Positions 6,655-41,656 of a DNA stretch of 64,000 bases are shown piece after piece. A program made the translations under genes and the position numbers. The stretch comes from an uncultured Pseudophaeobacter sp. Its GTDB lineage: Bacteria; Pseudomonadota; Alphaproteobacteria; Rhodobacterales; Rhodobacteraceae. How positions within the stretch are numbered: the stretch's first letter is position 1; the number at the start of each line of letters is the position of its first letter. The DNA lies in assembly GCA_905479575.1 (NCBI GenBank), contig CAJQNB010000035.1, positions 1 to 64,000 of the forward strand. The letters are read 5' to 3'. The notes under the pieces were generated by a model, which worked only from the letters and a program-made list of their open reading frames with translations, was not told the origin of the DNA and ran no database searches.

Positions 6655-6740
6655 GGGGGGGCTCCCGCGCGCCGGGCCTGTTTTACTGACGCAAAACCAC
6701 CCGGCCCTTGGGCCCGGCGCCGCCCGTTCCGGGCGGCGCG
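6655..6740 (+). repeat. GC-rich structured intergenic element, copy A
   Basis: It starts GGGGGGCTCCCGC (6655-6667), has a variable middle, then TTGGGCCCGGCGC (6708-6720), and ends in the perfect hairpin GCGCCGCCCG-TTC-CGGGCGGCGC (6717-6739). It lies between the convergent FabD-like and DUF427-cyclase genes. The same architecture recurs at about 38.0, 40.2 and 40.4 kb. Confidence 0.75.
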
Positions 6741-6805
6741 CCAGCACCTGCGGCAGGCGGTGCGCCTTGTGATCCCGTCTATTTTGGGCAACTTCAATTG
6801 CGCAG

Positions 6806-36295: not shown

Positions 36296-36982
36296 ATGGC
36301 GCAACTGAAGAAAATTCTACTGGTGGATGATGACGAGGATCTGCGCGAGGCTCTGAGTGAACAGCTGATTATGACCGAGGACTTTGATGTCTTTGAGGCC
36401 GAAAATGGCCAAGGCGCCATGGAGCGCGTGAAAGAGGCGCTGTATGATCTGGTGATCCTGGATGTGGGCTTGCCCGACACCGATGGTCGTGAGCTGTGCC
36501 GCCTGATGCGCAAGCAAGGCGTCAAGGCGCCGATCCTGATGCTGACAGGCCATGACAGCGATTCAGACACCATTCTGGGACTGGATGCCGGTGCCAATGA
36601 CTATGTCTCGAAACCTTTCAAATTTCCGGTGCTATTGGCGCGTATCCGCGCCCAATTGCGCCAGCATGAACAATCCGAAGATGCGGTTTTTGTGCTTGGG
36701 CCCTATACGTTCAAGCCGGCGATGAAGATGTTGCTGACCGAGGATGAGCGCAAGATCCGGCTGACCGAGAAAGAGACCAATATCCTGAAATTCCTCTATC
36801 GCTCCACCGATGGGGTGGTGGCGCGGGATGTGCTGCTGCATGAGGTCTGGGGCTATAACGCCGGTGTCACCACGCATACCTTGGAAACCCATATCTATCG
36901 GCTGCGCCAAAAGATCGAACCGGATCCCTCCAATGCCCGTATCCTGGTAACGGAATCCGGTGGCTATCGTCTGATCAGCTAG
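36296..36982 (+). CDS. OmpR-type response regulator
   Basis: The 228-residue product has a receiver domain (1-120), with acidic pocket residues Asp11-13, phospho-acceptor Asp56 (LDVGLPD) and Lys106 (SKPF). A winged-helix DNA-binding domain (about 130-228) ends IEPDPSNARILVTESGGYRL. GGCGGGAG lies upstream of the ATG. No histidine kinase gene is adjacent, so it is an orphan regulator whose partner lies elsewhere. The gene is divergent from ribA. Confidence 0.92.
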   Translation: MAQLKKILLVDDDEDLREALSEQLIMTEDFDVFEAENGQGAMERVKEALYDLVILDVGLPDTDGRELCRLMRKQGVKAPILMLTGHDSDSDTILGLDAGANDYVSKPFKFPVLLARIRAQLRQHEQSEDAVFVLGPYTFKPAMKMLLTEDERKIRLTEKETNILKFLYRSTDGVVARDVLLHEVWGYNAGVTTHTLETHIYRLRQKIEPDPSNARILVTESGGYRLIS

Positions 36983-37047
36983 CGCCTGTCTTTTTTCCCT
37001 CATCCCGCGCATGTCCGGGTTATGATGTGCACCTCCCTGTTGGACTG

Positions 37048-37075
37048 GGCCGGGCTTTATGCCCGGCCTTTTTTT
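37048..37075 (+). terminator. Rho-independent terminator after the response regulator
   Basis: GGCCGGGC and GCCCGGCC form a perfect 8-bp stem with loop TTTAT, followed by seven T. Confidence 0.93.
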
Positions 37076-37206: not shown

Positions 37207-37995
37207 ATGGCTTTTTCCCTTGCGACCTGGAACATTAACTCTGTCCGCCTGCGCGAAGAGCTGGTGCAAAAACTTTTGCGCGAGGAAGGCCCGGATGTGC
37301 TGTGTCTGCAGGAGTGTAAAAGCCCGGTGGACAAGATCCCGACACAGGGTTTTGCCGATTTGGGCTACCCCTATATGGTTGCACGTGGGCAGAAGGGATA
37401 TAATGGCGTCGCCATTCTATCGCGCTTGCCCATCGTGGAAGCCGGGGCTGAGGATTTTGCCAATCTCGGCCATGCGCGCCATATCGCGGGGCGGCTGGAA
37501 AATGGCGTGACTGTGCATAATTTCTACGTGCCTGCAGGCGGGGACAAGCCCGACCGGGAAGTGAATGAGAAATTTGGTCAGAAGCTGGATTACCTGAGCG
37601 AGATGCGGGACTGGTTTAAGGCGGAGAAGCCTGAAAAATCCATTCTGGTTGGCGATCTCAATATCGCGCCGCGCGAAGATGATGTCTGGGACCACAAGAA
37701 AATGCTGAAGATCGTCAGCCACACGCCGGTGGAGGTGGATCTGCTGGCAGAGGTGCAGGAGGCCGGAAGTTGGGCCGATGTGACCCGCGCTGATATTCCT
37801 GAGGGGCTGCTGTATAGCTGGTGGAGCTACCGGGCCAAGGATTGGGACGCGGCTGACAAAGGGCGCCGTTTGGATCACGTCTGGGCCACCGGGGACATTC
37901 GTCAGGCAGCGCATTCCAGCCGGGTTCTGCGCGCCGCCCGGGGCTGGGAAAAACCCAGTGACCACGCGCCGGTTTTTGCCACCTTTGATCTGTAA
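37207..37995 (+). CDS. xth: Exodeoxyribonuclease III
   Basis: This AP endonuclease and 3'-5' exonuclease acts in base-excision repair. The 262-residue product has the family residues in order: ATWNINSVR with Asn, LQECKS with the metal Glu, the VGDLNIAP Asp-Asn pair, and the terminal RRLDHVWATGD and SDHAPVFATF motifs with the catalytic His. The Met of MAFSLATWN is the start; a longer frame upstream crosses the preceding terminator. A GC-rich repeat element follows its stop. Confidence 0.95.
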   Translation: MAFSLATWNINSVRLREELVQKLLREEGPDVLCLQECKSPVDKIPTQGFADLGYPYMVARGQKGYNGVAILSRLPIVEAGAEDFANLGHARHIAGRLENGVTVHNFYVPAGGDKPDREVNEKFGQKLDYLSEMRDWFKAEKPEKSILVGDLNIAPREDDVWDHKKMLKIVSHTPVEVDLLAEVQEAGSWADVTRADIPEGLLYSWWSYRAKDWDAADKGRRLDHVWATGDIRQAAHSSRVLRAARGWEKPSDHAPVFATFDL

Positions 37996-38009
37996 CGTTC
38001 TTGAGGAAC

Positions 38010-38087
38010 GGGGGGCTCCCGCCCGTCGTTTGGGCATCACAGATGCCCGCCTCCCGTTGGGCCCGGCGCCGCGCCAGGGCGCGGCGC
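38010..38087 (+). repeat. GC-rich structured intergenic element, copy B
   Basis: GGGGGGCTCCCGC (38010-38022) is followed by the hairpin GGGCATC-ACA-GATGCCC, TTGGGCCCGGCGC (38057-38069) and the perfect 10-bp hairpin GCGCCGCGCC/GGCGCGGCGC (38066-38087). It begins 14 bases after the xth stop. Confidence 0.75.
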
Positions 38088-38233
38088 GGGTGCGCTGTGT
38101 TGAGGTCGGACACCAAGCGTCTTAGGCTGGCGAGAAATGACAGTGGGACCAGGGCGGAGAGAACTCCACTCTTGGTTTCTGTGTTCCGGCGCTCCATATA
38201 GGGGCCAAGCTTCAAACGGAGAAGATTGAGACA

Positions 38234-39166
38234 ATGGATATTATTGGCGGAGCGGGCACCGCAGCCCCCGCAGGTGATGTGATCAAGGACGTCGGTGAGG
38301 CGACCTTTATGCAGGATGTGATCGAGGCCTCGATGCAGGCGCCGGTCATCGTTGATTTCTGGGCGCCCTGGTGTGGTCCTTGCAAGACGCTTGGACCCGC
38401 CTTGGAGGCGGTTGTGACCAAGGCCAAGGGCGCGGTCACCATGGCCAAGGTCAATGTCGATGAAAACCAGCGCCTGGCCCAGGCTTTGTCGCAGCAGGGG
38501 TTGCCGTTGCAATCGATCCCAACTGTGGTTGCCTTTGTGGAAGGGCGCCCCATTGATATGTTTCAAGGCAATGTGCCGCCGAGCGAAATCGAAGCCTTTG
38601 TGAACAAGGCAATCGAGGCGGGTGGTGGCAGTGCTGACGGTGGCCTGAGCGAAGCCCTGGACGTTGCCGAGCAAATGCTGGCAGATGGTGACGTCGCGGA
38701 TGCGGCGCAGACCTTTGCAGCAATTATTGGCGAAGATGACAAAAGCGCGGCGGCCTATGGTGGTCTGGCGCGGGCGCATATCGCGCTGGAAGATCTGGAC
38801 CAGGCCGAAGCGGTTCTGAATGGCGCCCCGGCAGAGATTGCCGATGCCGCCGAGATCGAGGCGGCGCGGGCGCAGATCGAACTGGCGCGACAGGCGGAAA
38901 ACGCCGGCCCCGTTGCCGAACTGGCAGCCAAAGTTGAGGCCAGCCCAGAGGATCTGGACGCGCGCTTTGAATTGGCGCAGGCGCTGCATGCCGCGGGCGA
39001 TGCAGAAGCGGCGGTGACTGAGCTGCTGGAGCTGTTCCGCCGTGATCGCGAGTGGAACGACGGCGCTGCCAAGGCGCAGCTTTTCACGATCTTTGACGCG
39101 CTGCAGCCCAATGATCCGGTGGTTTTGAACGGTCGCCGCAAGCTGAGCTCATTGATATTTGCCTAA
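38234..39166 (+). CDS. Thioredoxin domain with TPR-like C-terminus (CnoX/YbbN type)
   Basis: The 310-residue product has a thioredoxin domain (about 17-125) with active site WCGPC (Cys47-Cys50) and the cis-Pro SIPTVVAF. It is followed by an alanine-rich helical region (about 135-310) with tetratricopeptide-like repeats (ALDVAEQMLADGDVADAAQT). CnoX/YbbN proteins protect folding clients from oxidation and hand them to chaperonin. Here the CxxC is intact. It begins a forward run with a Lon-N protein and a Trm112-like protein. Confidence 0.9.
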   Translation: MDIIGGAGTAAPAGDVIKDVGEATFMQDVIEASMQAPVIVDFWAPWCGPCKTLGPALEAVVTKAKGAVTMAKVNVDENQRLAQALSQQGLPLQSIPTVVAFVEGRPIDMFQGNVPPSEIEAFVNKAIEAGGGSADGGLSEALDVAEQMLADGDVADAAQTFAAIIGEDDKSAAAYGGLARAHIALEDLDQAEAVLNGAPAEIADAAEIEAARAQIELARQAENAGPVAELAAKVEASPEDLDARFELAQALHAAGDAEAAVTELLELFRRDREWNDGAAKAQLFTIFDALQPNDPVVLNGRRKLSSLIFA

Positions 39167-39193
39167 TTGGGTCTCTGCCCTACAGTAATAGCC

Positions 39194-39838
39194 ATGATGC
39201 ATATCGCAGATCTGCCGGACACTATTGCTGTCTTTCCACTGCCCCGGGCGATTTTATTGCCCCGGGCCCGCCTGCCGTTGCATATCTTTGAACCGCGCTA
39301 TTTGCAGATGTTCGAAGATGCGTTGAAGACCCCGGAGCGCCTGATTGGCATGATCCAGCCCTGCGCAGGTAATGGGAATGCTGAGGCGCTGCAGGCCATT
39401 GGCTGCGCCGGACGGGTGACGCAGTTCTCCGAGACCGAAGATGGCCGCTATATGGTTACCCTGTCGGGCCTGTCCAGGTTTCGTATTCTGGGTGAAGTCA
39501 GCGGCTTTAGTCCCTACCGGCGCTGTGACGTCAGCTGGACAGGGTTTGACCGCGATCTTGGCACTGCTGCCGAGACGGATACCGAGTTTGACCGTGCCGG
39601 TTTTCTGGCTTTGCTGGAGCGCCTCTTTGTGGCCCAGGGGCTGTCAACGGATTGGGATTCTCTGAAAGAGGCCGAAGATGAGCTGCTGATCAACTCCCTG
39701 TCGATGTTGCTGGAATTCGAGCCAGAAGACAAACAGGCCTTGCTAGAGGCGCCCTGCCTTGCCACAAGGCGAAAAACCTTGGTGACATTGATCGAGTTTT
39801 CCCTAAGGGGCGGCGCAGATGAGGATATCTTGCAATGA
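39194..39838 (+). CDS. Stand-alone Lon N-terminal substrate-binding domain protein
   Basis: The 214-residue product has the LON domain of Lon protease: [20 protein letters not shown] and [13 protein letters not shown] at the start. There is no ATPase or protease domain. Such stand-alone proteins are common in alphaproteobacteria and may bind unfolded substrates. Start choice MMHIADLP; the second Met is equally possible. It overlaps the Trm112-like gene by ATGA and follows the thioredoxin-TPR gene, which together point to protein quality control. Confidence 0.88.
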
Positions 39839-40023
39839 GTGATACAAAACCGGTGACCTTTGATCGCCGCATGTTGGAGGCTCTGGTGTGTCCACAAACC
39901 CAAGGCACTCTGGAGTATGATGCTGAGGCGCAGGAATTGCTGTCCAGAGCGGCTAATCTGGCCTTTCCAATCCGCAATGGCATTCCCGTTATGTTGGTGG
40001 ATGAAGCCCGCGCCATTGAGTAG
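39835..40023 (+). CDS. Trm112 family protein (YcaR-like)
   Basis: The 62-residue product matches the small Trm112/YcaR family: [16 protein letters not shown] followed by [18 protein letters not shown]. Eukaryotic Trm112 activates methyltransferases, while bacterial members are poorly studied. Only one cysteine of the usual zinc site remains, so metal binding is doubtful. Coupled by ATGA to the Lon-N gene. Confidence 0.88.
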
Positions 40024-40157
40024 GCCTACAGCAGCACTTTCCTTTTGTTCTCGGCTAGATCGCTCTGGTCGTTTTGTTCTGGGATGAGTGCCGTCGTTTG
40101 AAAACTGCCCTGGTTCATGCTGCGGCAAAAGCAGCCGTTGCATGGTTTGGTAAAAAA

Positions 40158-40240
40158 GGGGGGCTCCCGCGCCCGCAGGTGCCCCTTTGGGGCGCCTTGG
40201 CGGCCTTGGGCCCGGCGCTGTGCTTACGCACAGCGGGCGC
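40158..40240 (+). repeat. GC-rich structured intergenic element, copy C
   Basis: GGGGGGCTCCCGC (40158-40170) is followed by the hairpin GGTGCCCC-TTT-GGGGCGCC, TTGGGCCCGGCGC (40206-40218) and a closing 8-bp hairpin CGCTGTGC/GCACAGCG (40216-40235). It lies between the Trm112-like gene and ubiH. Confidence 0.75.
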
Positions 40241-40332
40241 GCAATTTGGATCGTTGTGGCTTTGACGATCTATCGGCAGTGGTGCCGGCGGTCAGGGTGG
40301 CTTTTAGCTACAGCTGTGAAACCCGCGGTGCC

Positions 40333-40413
40333 GCGCCTTGCCGCTAGGCAAGGCGCTGGGCCCAACCAGATCGCAACACCGCAGATGTTGACGCAATGGG
40401 CGGGAGCCCCACC
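40333..40413 (-). repeat. GC-rich structured intergenic element, copy D (inverted)
   Basis: This is the same element on the reverse strand: GGTGGGGCTCCCGC, a hairpin with arms CAACA/TGTTG, TTGGGCCCAGCGC and the perfect 10-bp closing hairpin GCGCCTTGCC/GGCAAGGCGC. With copy C it forms an inverted pair inside the 406-base convergent gap before ubiH. Confidence 0.72.
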
Positions 40414-40429
40414 TTGCCGGGGCGGGACG

Positions 40430-41656
40430 TCAAATGGCTTCACCTTTGAGCAGACGCGGCAATTCGCCGGTCAGCCCGGCAGCTTCGCGCATGAAACCAC
40501 GTCTCAGACCGGGCAGGCTGTTAACCAGCCCCATCCCCAGATCCCGGCCAAGGCGCAGCAGTGGGTTGTCGTTGGAAAACAGTTTGTTGACCATATCCGT
40601 GCCGGCGACAAGCGTGGCTGTATCAAAGCGGCGCCACTGCTGGTAGCGGTCCAGCACCAGCGAGGAGCCCGCATCTTCGCCACGCCGCCGGGCCTCGGTC
40701 AGCACCTCCGCCAAGGCACCAACATCGCGTAGCCCTGCGTTCAGCCCTTGCCCGGCAATGGGGTGCATGCCATGGGCCGCATCGCCAATCAGCGCCATCC
40801 GGGCGCCTATGAAACTATTGGCGATGGTCAGGTTCAGCGGATAGGTAAAGCGTTTGCCCGCCAGGGAAATCTCGCCGAGAAAATTGCCAAATCGCGGCTT
40901 TAGCGCCGTGATGTAATCCCTGTCATCCAGCCCCTGGATCGCCTCGGCCATCTCGGTCTTTTCGCTCCAGACTATCGAAGAGCGATTGCCCGGCAGCGGT
41001 AAGACCGCCAGTGGGCCGGGTTCCATAAAGAACTGATGGGCAATGCCGTGGTGCGGCTTTTCGTGATCAATGGCGCAGACCAGCGCGGTTTGGCCGTAGT
41101 CCCAGCCTGTACGCTTGATCCCGGCGCGCGCGGCGGTGCCGCTTTTGCGCCCATCCGCCCCCACCAGAATGCCGCCGCGCAGGGTGTCACCACTTGCCAA
41201 AGTCAGGGTAACGCCGGTCTGGTCCGTGTCTTGGGCCACCACGCGGGCATCGTTGATCAGGGAAATGCGGTGCTCCTCCTCCAGCGCCTTGAGCAAGGCG
41301 CGTCGCAGATAGCGATCCTCCAACATATAGCCCATCGGGCCTTCTTCGATCTCGCGGTGATCAAAATGCACAAAAAACGGCGCCGCCCCTTCGCCGGCAT
41401 GGCCATCGCTGGCCTTGATTTCCAGCATTGGCTGGGCCTGCTCGGCCACCTGCGGCCAGATGCCAATCTGCGCCAGCAACCGCTGCGAGGCCAGGGCCAG
41501 GGCATAGCCGCGGCCGTCAAAGCCTTCATCCTCAAACCCACCGCGTGGCAGGGCGTCGACAACGGTGACGCTATGGCCGGTTTGTGCCAGGGCCAAAGCC
41601 AGGGCGGCGCCGTTCAAGCCGCCACCAACGATCAAAATATCGGATGTGTTTTTCAT
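40430..41656 (-). CDS. UbiH/UbiF-family FAD monooxygenase
   Basis: The 408-residue product belongs to the flavin hydroxylases of ubiquinone synthesis. It has the FAD-binding VGGGLNGAALALALAQTGH near the N-terminus, GADGRKSGTA in the middle and the LIGDAAHGMHPIAGQGLN motif that is diagnostic for the family. It should hydroxylate the quinone ring at the inner membrane; which position is unclear. Start MKNTSDILIVGG is preferred over a longer frame by 12 residues. Confidence 0.92.
   Translation of the reverse strand: MKNTSDILIVGGGLNGAALALALAQTGHSVTVVDALPRGGFEDEGFDGRGYALALASQRLLAQIGIWPQVAEQAQPMLEIKASDGHAGEGAAPFFVHFDHREIEEGPMGYMLEDRYLRRALLKALEEEHRISLINDARVVAQDTDQTGVTLTLASGDTLRGGILVGADGRKSGTAARAGIKRTGWDYGQTALVCAIDHEKPHHGIAHQFFMEPGPLAVLPLPGNRSSIVWSEKTEMAEAIQGLDDRDYITALKPRFGNFLGEISLAGKRFTYPLNLTIANSFIGARMALIGDAAHGMHPIAGQGLNAGLRDVGALAEVLTEARRRGEDAGSSLVLDRYQQWRRFDTATLVAGTDMVNKLFSNDNPLLRLGRDLGMGLVNSLPGLRRGFMREAAGLTGELPRLLKGEAI

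Follow-up and report, generated by a model that had tools for sequence, protein, structure and literature searches.

A dispersed structured repeat at gene 3' ends in Pseudophaeobacter and its relatives, possibly a REP-like family kept as an RNA 3' boundary

What is the G+C-rich structured element that recurs between genes in a contig of an uncultured Pseudophaeobacter sp., and which of its strands folds? We analysed a window of 64,000 nt, the whole stretch presented above, in which an earlier note had claimed four copies lying after gene ends, named A to D, the last one reversed. All four were borne out at their positions. Copy A (6655-6742) lies in a gap between convergent genes and copy B (38009-38090) in a gap flanked by two plus-strand genes, to both of which its folded strand is antisense. 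Copies C (40157-40239) and D (40330-40413) are the first and second members of a facing pair, the hairpins that we call P3 facing each other. The strand that folds, according to the evidence given below, is the minus strand for A, B and C and the plus strand for D. The copies lie 75 (A), 14 (B), 134 (C) and 17 nt (D) beyond a gene end, in agreement with the claimed position; the gene calls come from a purpose-written codon-usage script and were inspected on the window alone.

Read on the strand of the earlier note, hereafter the described strand, each window copy consists of GGGGCTCCCGC, a variable stem-loop, TTGGGCCC and a G+C-rich hairpin. On the opposite, folded strand the order becomes the P3 hairpin, GGGCCCAA, the P2 hairpin, GCGGGAGCCC and a C-run. 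The repeat unit is about 80 nt long and comprises two hairpins plus a weakly supported junction stem, P1, in which the first motif may pair with the second over a few base pairs (GGGC/GCCC and CC/GG, one A being bulged). P2 often starts with a Watson-Crick pair, G.G, another pair and then tandem G.A. For example, copy C has GGGGCTCCCGC at 40160-40170 (plus strand) and TTGGGCCC at 40206-40213 (plus strand); in the folded reading the former becomes GCGGGAGCCCC and supplies the 3' arm of P1, and the latter becomes GGGCCCAA, made up of the 5' arm of P1 plus AA. Its variable hairpin P2 spans 40171-40205 (minus strand), and a T-tract at 40153-40158 (minus strand) lies beyond the folded-strand C-run. 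The apical triloops TC(TTT)GA and TC(TGT)GA recur on differing P2 stems, in 12 of 55 copies of the window's genome and 19 of 111 related copies.

The earlier note had staked its family on further copies in the genome and on covariation beyond chance, and had proposed a covariance-model search; both were looked for and found, so that neither check refutes the family. The pattern GGGGCTCCCGC N20-50 TTGGGCCC has 26 exact matches in the genome (4.2 Mb), against none for a reversed-pattern control. A covariance model (R1) built from an alignment of 22 copies (A1) gave 53 matches at E <= 0.001. Within the genus, each of the 12 genomes (that of the window among them) carries the element, with 23-59 R1 matches. 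In a family-wide sample of one genome per genus, matches occurred in 12 of 149 genera with R1 and in 21 of 149 with the opposite-strand model R2, the per-genome copy numbers of the R2 search being lower bounds. A class-wide sample, which doubles as a false-positive control, yielded a match in one of 190 genomes, the window's own. Scanning genome contigs for the exact pattern returned at least 107 stretches; the 80 listed titles are mainly of Rhodobacteraceae, with single ones from Verrucomicrobiia, Saccharothrix, Nocardioides, Cellvibrionaceae, Longimicrobiaceae and Acidovorax. R1 matched 68 of these 80 stretches at E <= 0.1, in addition to a weak match in the Verrucomicrobiia record (29.4 bits). 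The other 11 gave no R1 match; they include the Saccharothrix, Cellvibrionaceae, Longimicrobiaceae and Acidovorax records and several Rhodobacteraceae ones. A strong match (68.9 bits; L036, 3023-3109) lies in the record whose title names the actinobacterium Nocardioides marinus; mislabelling or contamination is possible. Copy B is also matched by seven plasmid records from Ruegeria, Tritonibacter and Leisingera, and where these are annotated no feature lies under the match in the gene table, which is without RNA genes.

The pairing itself departs strongly from chance. At the outer six P2 positions of 28 copies, 113 of 168 cells are paired; swapping arms among the copies gives 64.9 +- 5.6, and none of 2000 such shuffles reached the observed value. 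In A1, four of five covariation measures were reached by none of 500 shuffles and the fifth by one. All 22 copies retain the first P2 pair (C-G 12, G-C 9, A-U 1), while the second position holds a non-standard pair in 18 of 22. When 36 selected copies (P2 of 33-36 nt and a P3 loop of 4) were aligned in the reverse-strand reading (A4), all five measures exceeded all 500 shuffles and no slid register equalled the observed one. Given A1 alone, RNAalifold predicted P1 together with some of P3, and not P2. P1 is nearly invariant: columns 34/85 hold G-C 29 times, G-U twice, C-G and U-A once each, and are unpaired in three copies.

A stem under selection tolerates G.U, and a G.U pair on one strand appears as C.A on the other, so that mismatch types indicate which strand folds. 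Across 206 distinct copies, the mismatches of the inner P2 stem on the described strand comprise 64 C.A, 29 G.U and 120 others, which makes C.A twice as frequent as G.U there. The reverse complement turns P2 mismatches into G.U, G.G and tandem G.A, and P2 folds better on it in 46 of 55 copies of the window's genome and 98 of 111 other copies. On this reverse strand, the second P2 position is G.G in 38 of 55 own and 72 of 111 other copies. Tandem G.A occurs there in 19 of 55 and 47 of 111 copies, respectively, and never on the described strand; arm swaps gave 9.0 and 18.9 (maxima 18 and 29). G-rich arms explain part of the G.G and G.A signal, which the arm-swap control allows for. P3 has few mismatches (C.A 8, G.U 1), and its energies do not favour the reverse strand (among own copies, 35 favour the described strand and 17 the reverse). 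The P2 preference is independent of the direction of neighbouring genes, and holds in 16 of 16 copies where neither neighbour would transcribe the folded strand. On the mismatch types and the P2 folding energies we set the described strand aside as the folding strand. Hence, the earlier picture of a covarying structured family at gene ends stands for structure, covariation and position, but its strand gives way to the reverse complement, and it is D, not C, that reads in the folded direction on the plus strand.

Where the element sits in relation to genes is far from even. In the window's genome, 42 of 53 copies lie in convergent gaps (one of these copies overlaps a predicted gene end), eight in co-directional gaps (four each way) and three in gaps called divergent. 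Among 90 copies at related loci, 51 are convergent, 29 co-directional (14 + 15, one of them inside a predicted gene) and 10 at an edge; this count covers 90 of 91 matches, the weak Verrucomicrobiia match being left out. For gaps of at least 90 nt at the related loci, a copy is present in 39 of 59 convergent, 23 of 145 co-directional and none of 59 divergent gaps. These shares are inflated because the loci were picked for holding a copy, which affects the empty divergent class less. In single convergent copies, it is the T end of the element, rather than the P3 end, that lies closer to a stop codon in 20 of 31 own and 20 of 29 related cases (40 of 60 together), and in 33 of 54 cases on the chromosomes of G158 and G149, two genomes of the genus.

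The folded strand of the window's genome tends to run into T. At least four T occur in the 6 nt past the C-run in 27 of 50 own copies, compared with 8 of 50 on the P3 side and 14% of positions in gaps between convergent genes; for at least five T the figures are 17 of 50, 1 and 5%. The tract is weaker in other genomes and absent from the copies of G005, a genome of another genus. Of the own co-directional copies in the sense direction, all three that could be scored show 5-6 T in 6 nt. In the pooled set, the tract is not significantly stronger where a neighbour would transcribe the folded strand (2.92 vs 2.50, p 0.18), and we therefore set aside the idea that it is restricted to transcribed settings. 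In co-directional gaps, the folded strand runs along and against the genes about equally often (4/4 in the window's genome, 15 + 14 at related loci). Canonical terminators were not clearly rarer beside the element (9 of 37 gaps with it, 11 of 32 without), hence we did not retain the element as their substitute. A terminator scan of 37800-40700 found none at B, C or D, under a loop limit of 8 that excludes the element's shape.

The orientation of the copies follows replication within the genus. With replichore limits set by eye from GC skew (20 blocks of 20 kb per chromosome), the folded strand of single copies is the lagging-strand sequence in 28 of 34 cases in G158 (same species), 29 of 36 in G149 and 28 of 34 in G152, or 85 of 104 in total. 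The test used 146 chromosomal matches from 150 listed of 176. For each chromosome alone p is near 2e-4 to 3e-4, the three being partly dependent through shared loci. In G158 and G149, orientation was set against gap type for 63 of 70 single copies: in co-directional gaps it fits replication in 7 of 8 cases and gene direction in 5 of 8, and in convergent gaps it fits replication in 42 of 54. Skew over eight kb matches the replichore in 115 of 120 test blocks of the three chromosomes, and by this local measure 36 of 39 single copies of the window's genome fit the replication orientation. On named contigs 35 of 57 copies fit (p 0.11). Splitting these post hoc by name gave 31 of 37 for Phaeobacter, Pseudophaeobacter, Roseobacter-named, Leisingera and Tritonibacter/Ruegeria-type contigs and 4 of 20 for all others; in G005, 5 of 24 copies fit (24 of the 25 copies). 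The sign of the orientation may thus be opposite in other genera, which we treat as a lead and not a result because the split was post hoc and because local skew in these genera strongly tracks the coding strand (r 0.74).

The loci themselves can be followed across the genus. DNA searches located loci A, B and C/D in the 12 genomes, and the element is present, own genome included, at A in 8 of 12 (in G149 weakly, E 0.047), at B in 11, at C in 9 and at D in 9. The locus alignments took in 7 of 8 A, 10 of 11 B, 7 of 9 C and 9 of 9 D copies. Compared with the own copy, and counting sequences rather than events, P2 shows 33 double changes that are paired and 8 that are not, with 20 one-sided changes that keep and 35 that break pairing. 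P3 shows 4 paired and no unpaired double changes (one-sided, 1 keeps and 4 break), and P1 shows 2 paired and 1 unpaired (one-sided, 2 keep and 23 break). For example, the outer pair of copy C is G-C in the window's genome and C-G in G157, with another pair U-A in G156 and yet another U-A in G151. The outer P1 pairs vary among orthologues without compensation, which makes P1 the weakest part of the model. Compensatory change at orthologous copies fits a retained functional element, and together with retention it argues for a function of the folded strand. At locus A without the element, G152 and G157 hold a different recurrent sequence, and G150 has a remnant of the 5' motif beside one (by eye). 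In G154, the CCTCCCGTTGGGCCC stretch of copy B is tandemly duplicated (L189, 4928-5025).

There are also signs that the unit multiplies. In G005, 13 of 25 fetched copies are identical at 77-80 of 80 positions to one copy, which indicates that at least one lineage has multiplied the whole unit as a block, the T-tract being absent there. The sequence shared by these copies has a sharp right edge and ends near GGCGGGAG, and in 21 of 25 cases the next gene beyond the folded 3' end is encoded on the opposite strand. A second repeat module, of the GGAGTATTT..AGATGAA type, lies within 70 nt on the P3 side in 17 of the 25. This second family (GGAGTATTT N2-8 AGATGAA; G005 loci L246-L265 and L267) has 142 exact matches in G005 and none in the window's genome, occurs in 7 of 22 genomes searched and often adjoins a GGGGGCGCTGCCCCC hairpin. 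Facing pairs of the element have a single geometry (21 of 21), and may overlap and share one P3 (L077, L025, L039, L060, and C/D in G153). Beyond P3, several own copies are followed by a recurrent stretch close to CTGCTGAGA and then by a hairpin around TTCAGG..GGCAG..CTGCC..CTGAAG, as judged by eye (L176 after 8306, L018 before 4254, L159 before 4309, L168 after 4119, L169 after 4143, L166 after 4126). The two guesses of the earlier note, an RNA 3' element and a mobile repeat, thus each gain support, the former from compensatory change between orthologues and the latter from multiplication in G005.

Does the element belong to a known system? In the whole window, Rfam 15 gave no family at the gathering cut-off on any copy, the only hits being tRNA and SorX elsewhere. 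The small RNA SorX (singlet oxygen resistance RNA X) matches 37002-37074 (plus strand, 90 bits, cut-off 46.6), about 20 nt past the predicted gene 36296-36982 and about 1 kb ahead of copy B. The Rfam family BjrC68 (RF02353) weakly matches (20.4 bits against a cut-off of 39) a hairpin of copy C that resembles a terminator; that alignment amounts to a hairpin and a U-tract, pairs other parts and leaves the P1/P2/P3 architecture uncovered. A K-turn at the P1/P2 junction does not fit the order of the G.A pairs, by inspection. An integron attC site combines two core sites, RYYYAAC and GTTRRRY, within a single folded unit; the element has one core string per copy, whose first base is G or C as set by the first P2 pair. 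DNA uptake sequences are about 10 nt long and far more numerous, so the element is too long and its copies too few (23-59 per genome by R1) to be one. Pairs of uptake sequences are described, in the cited part of the source, as a repeated gene-end motif able to form a terminator hairpin (PMC2267715). No description of the element was recognised among the titles and abstract openings covered, a scope with most subscription journals outside it.

The closest resemblance is to repetitive extragenic palindromes (REPs). In the passages cited here, REPs of the GTAG and CGTC super-families are dispersed intergenic palindromes, mostly of convergent or co-directional gaps, near 3' ends, often in facing pairs and with stem changes that preserve pairing; they are single hairpins of 20-40 bp that bear a GTAG or CGTC tag, and the CGTC ones are mainly alphaproteobacterial and apparently without a dedicated transposase (PMC3733652). 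The element shares with them, on that description, gene-end position, facing pairs and pairing-preserving stem changes (PMC3733652); unlike them, it is about 80 nt long, has two hairpins and a junction stem, carries the motifs GGGGCTCCCGC and TTGGGCCC and has a replication-tied orientation. We rejected it as a CGTC-tagged REP, which is a palindrome of 20-40 bp with an 8-9 bp stem, A/T complementary at the first two positions, a terminal unpaired CGTC (or TGTC, CCTC) and a CCA-like tail: besides its length and two hairpins, its stems start with C-G or G-C and CGTC occurs only inside some P2 arms. It does lack a dedicated transposase, lie at gene ends and form dimers as these REPs do, traits that are widely shared and do not define membership. 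REPs and REPINs mobilised by RAYT are described, in the parts of the sources cited, as short paired repeats that multiply within a genome and persist (PMC2817692, PMC3116915). The element is not one of these either: the transposase domain PF01797 (Y1_Tnp) exceeds its cut-off in only 1 of 12 genus genomes, as a 38-position fragment, and is absent from the window's genome, and the GTAG tag at the palindrome foot is missing from the inspected copies. Br-REP1 and Br-REP2 of Bradyrhizobium are, in the cited passages, 3' UTR repeats with several hairpins that evolve fast and occur patchily among relatives; one is described where the 3' UTRs of convergent genes overlap, along with complementary small RNAs (PMC5082802). 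The element is likewise multi-hairpin, at gene 3' ends and patchy among relatives, but the Br-REP consensus is unrelated by inspection and, as given there, the Br-REP1 palindrome is almost fixed whereas P2 is rewritten in nearly every copy. Multiplication, facing pairs, gene-end position and the lack of a RAYT place the element with REP-like repeats, the transposase-less CGTC REPs and the Br-REPs being nearest in kind, although it lacks defining features of the former.

Our tentative reading, to which we give slightly less than an even chance, is that of a new Rhodobacteraceae family of REP-like repeats, without the usual transposase, that would be kept for its structure as an RNA 3' boundary. 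Observed are the repetition, the covarying pairing (also among orthologues), the position at gene 3' ends, the replication-tied orientation in the genus, the T-tract after the folded strand in the window's genome and the recent amplification in a relative. The family would spread by a replication-linked route that does not use the known REP transposase, and the folded-strand RNA would be retained as a boundary at which transcripts are stopped or trimmed, sparing the gene with its stop codon beside the T end from antisense transcription. We consider such a boundary the likeliest single function, with termination a presumed part of it. Counting against it are the nearly equal sense and antisense use in co-directional gaps and the P2 strand preference where neither neighbour gene would transcribe the folded strand, as at copy B, which is kept in 11 of 12 genomes. 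On the same side stand the T-tract, which does not differ significantly between transcribed and untranscribed settings and is lacking in G005, the canonical terminators that are not clearly rarer beside the element, the terminator scan that gave no hit at B, C or D, the uncompensated P1 changes and the three own copies in gaps called divergent. An ordinary lineage-specific intrinsic terminator, made of hairpin, C-run and T-tract and devoid of repeat biology, would account for a T-tract confined to the folded strand and for the three of three scorable sense co-directional copies with 5-6 T in 6 nt. We find it improbable, as that same equality in co-directional gaps, the T end lying closer to the other gene's stop, the strict conservation of GCGGGAGC and GGCCCAA (unneeded for a terminator), the G005 amplification without a T-tract and the replication-linked orientation all speak against it.

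The main rival is a replication-linked role, and it is the sole reading that predicts the orientation. The folded strand or its complement would be active as single-stranded DNA, either while spreading, when it would enter one strand at the fork, or at the fork itself, doing a job where convergent genes meet; gene ends would hold the copies because the element would be harmful elsewhere. DNA hairpins also accommodate G.T and G.A as stable pairs, and the lagging-strand bias (28/34, 29/36 and 28/34 on three chromosomes, 36/39 in the window's genome) and the co-directional copies (7/8 for replication, 5/8 for gene direction) are as expected. However, the sign seems reversed elsewhere (4/20 named contigs, 5/24 in G005), insertion bias alone is insufficient for orthologous retention with compensatory change, and the PF01797 transposase is under its cut-off in 11 of 12 genus genomes; we deem this role rather unlikely, if to be taken seriously. 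Somewhat more doubtful is an element given its direction by the fork rather than by transcription, which some enzyme would have spread as single-stranded DNA and which would then have been kept where convergent genes meet, the folded strand guarding the gene 3' end against opposing transcription or forks. Were this true, the opposite sign elsewhere would reflect a switch of that polarity. A plain REP-like repeat, mobile now or formerly and without host function, would owe its structure to spread and its position to purifying selection against insertions elsewhere. The near-identical G005 copies with their sharp right edge, the single geometry of 21 of 21 facing pairs, the patchy occurrence (21 of 149 genera) and the swapping of locus A copies for other repeats in G150, G152 and G157 are in its favour. 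Dead insertions should decay, however, whereas the orthologous copies persist in 8-11 of 12 species and their P2 double changes keep pairing in 33 cases and lose it in 8, which leaves us doubting this explanation more strongly still.

REP-like repeats are common, and the element addresses two open questions about them: their role and their spread without a transposase. CGTC REPs are described as apparently lacking one (PMC3733652). The family read here as a REP-like 3' boundary offers three handles on these questions: compensatory change at orthologous loci, non-canonical pairs on a folding strand that is defined, and an orientation by which replication can be told apart from transcription. 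The function of the element is directly testable, since cultured marine relatives allow the deletion or inversion of single copies.
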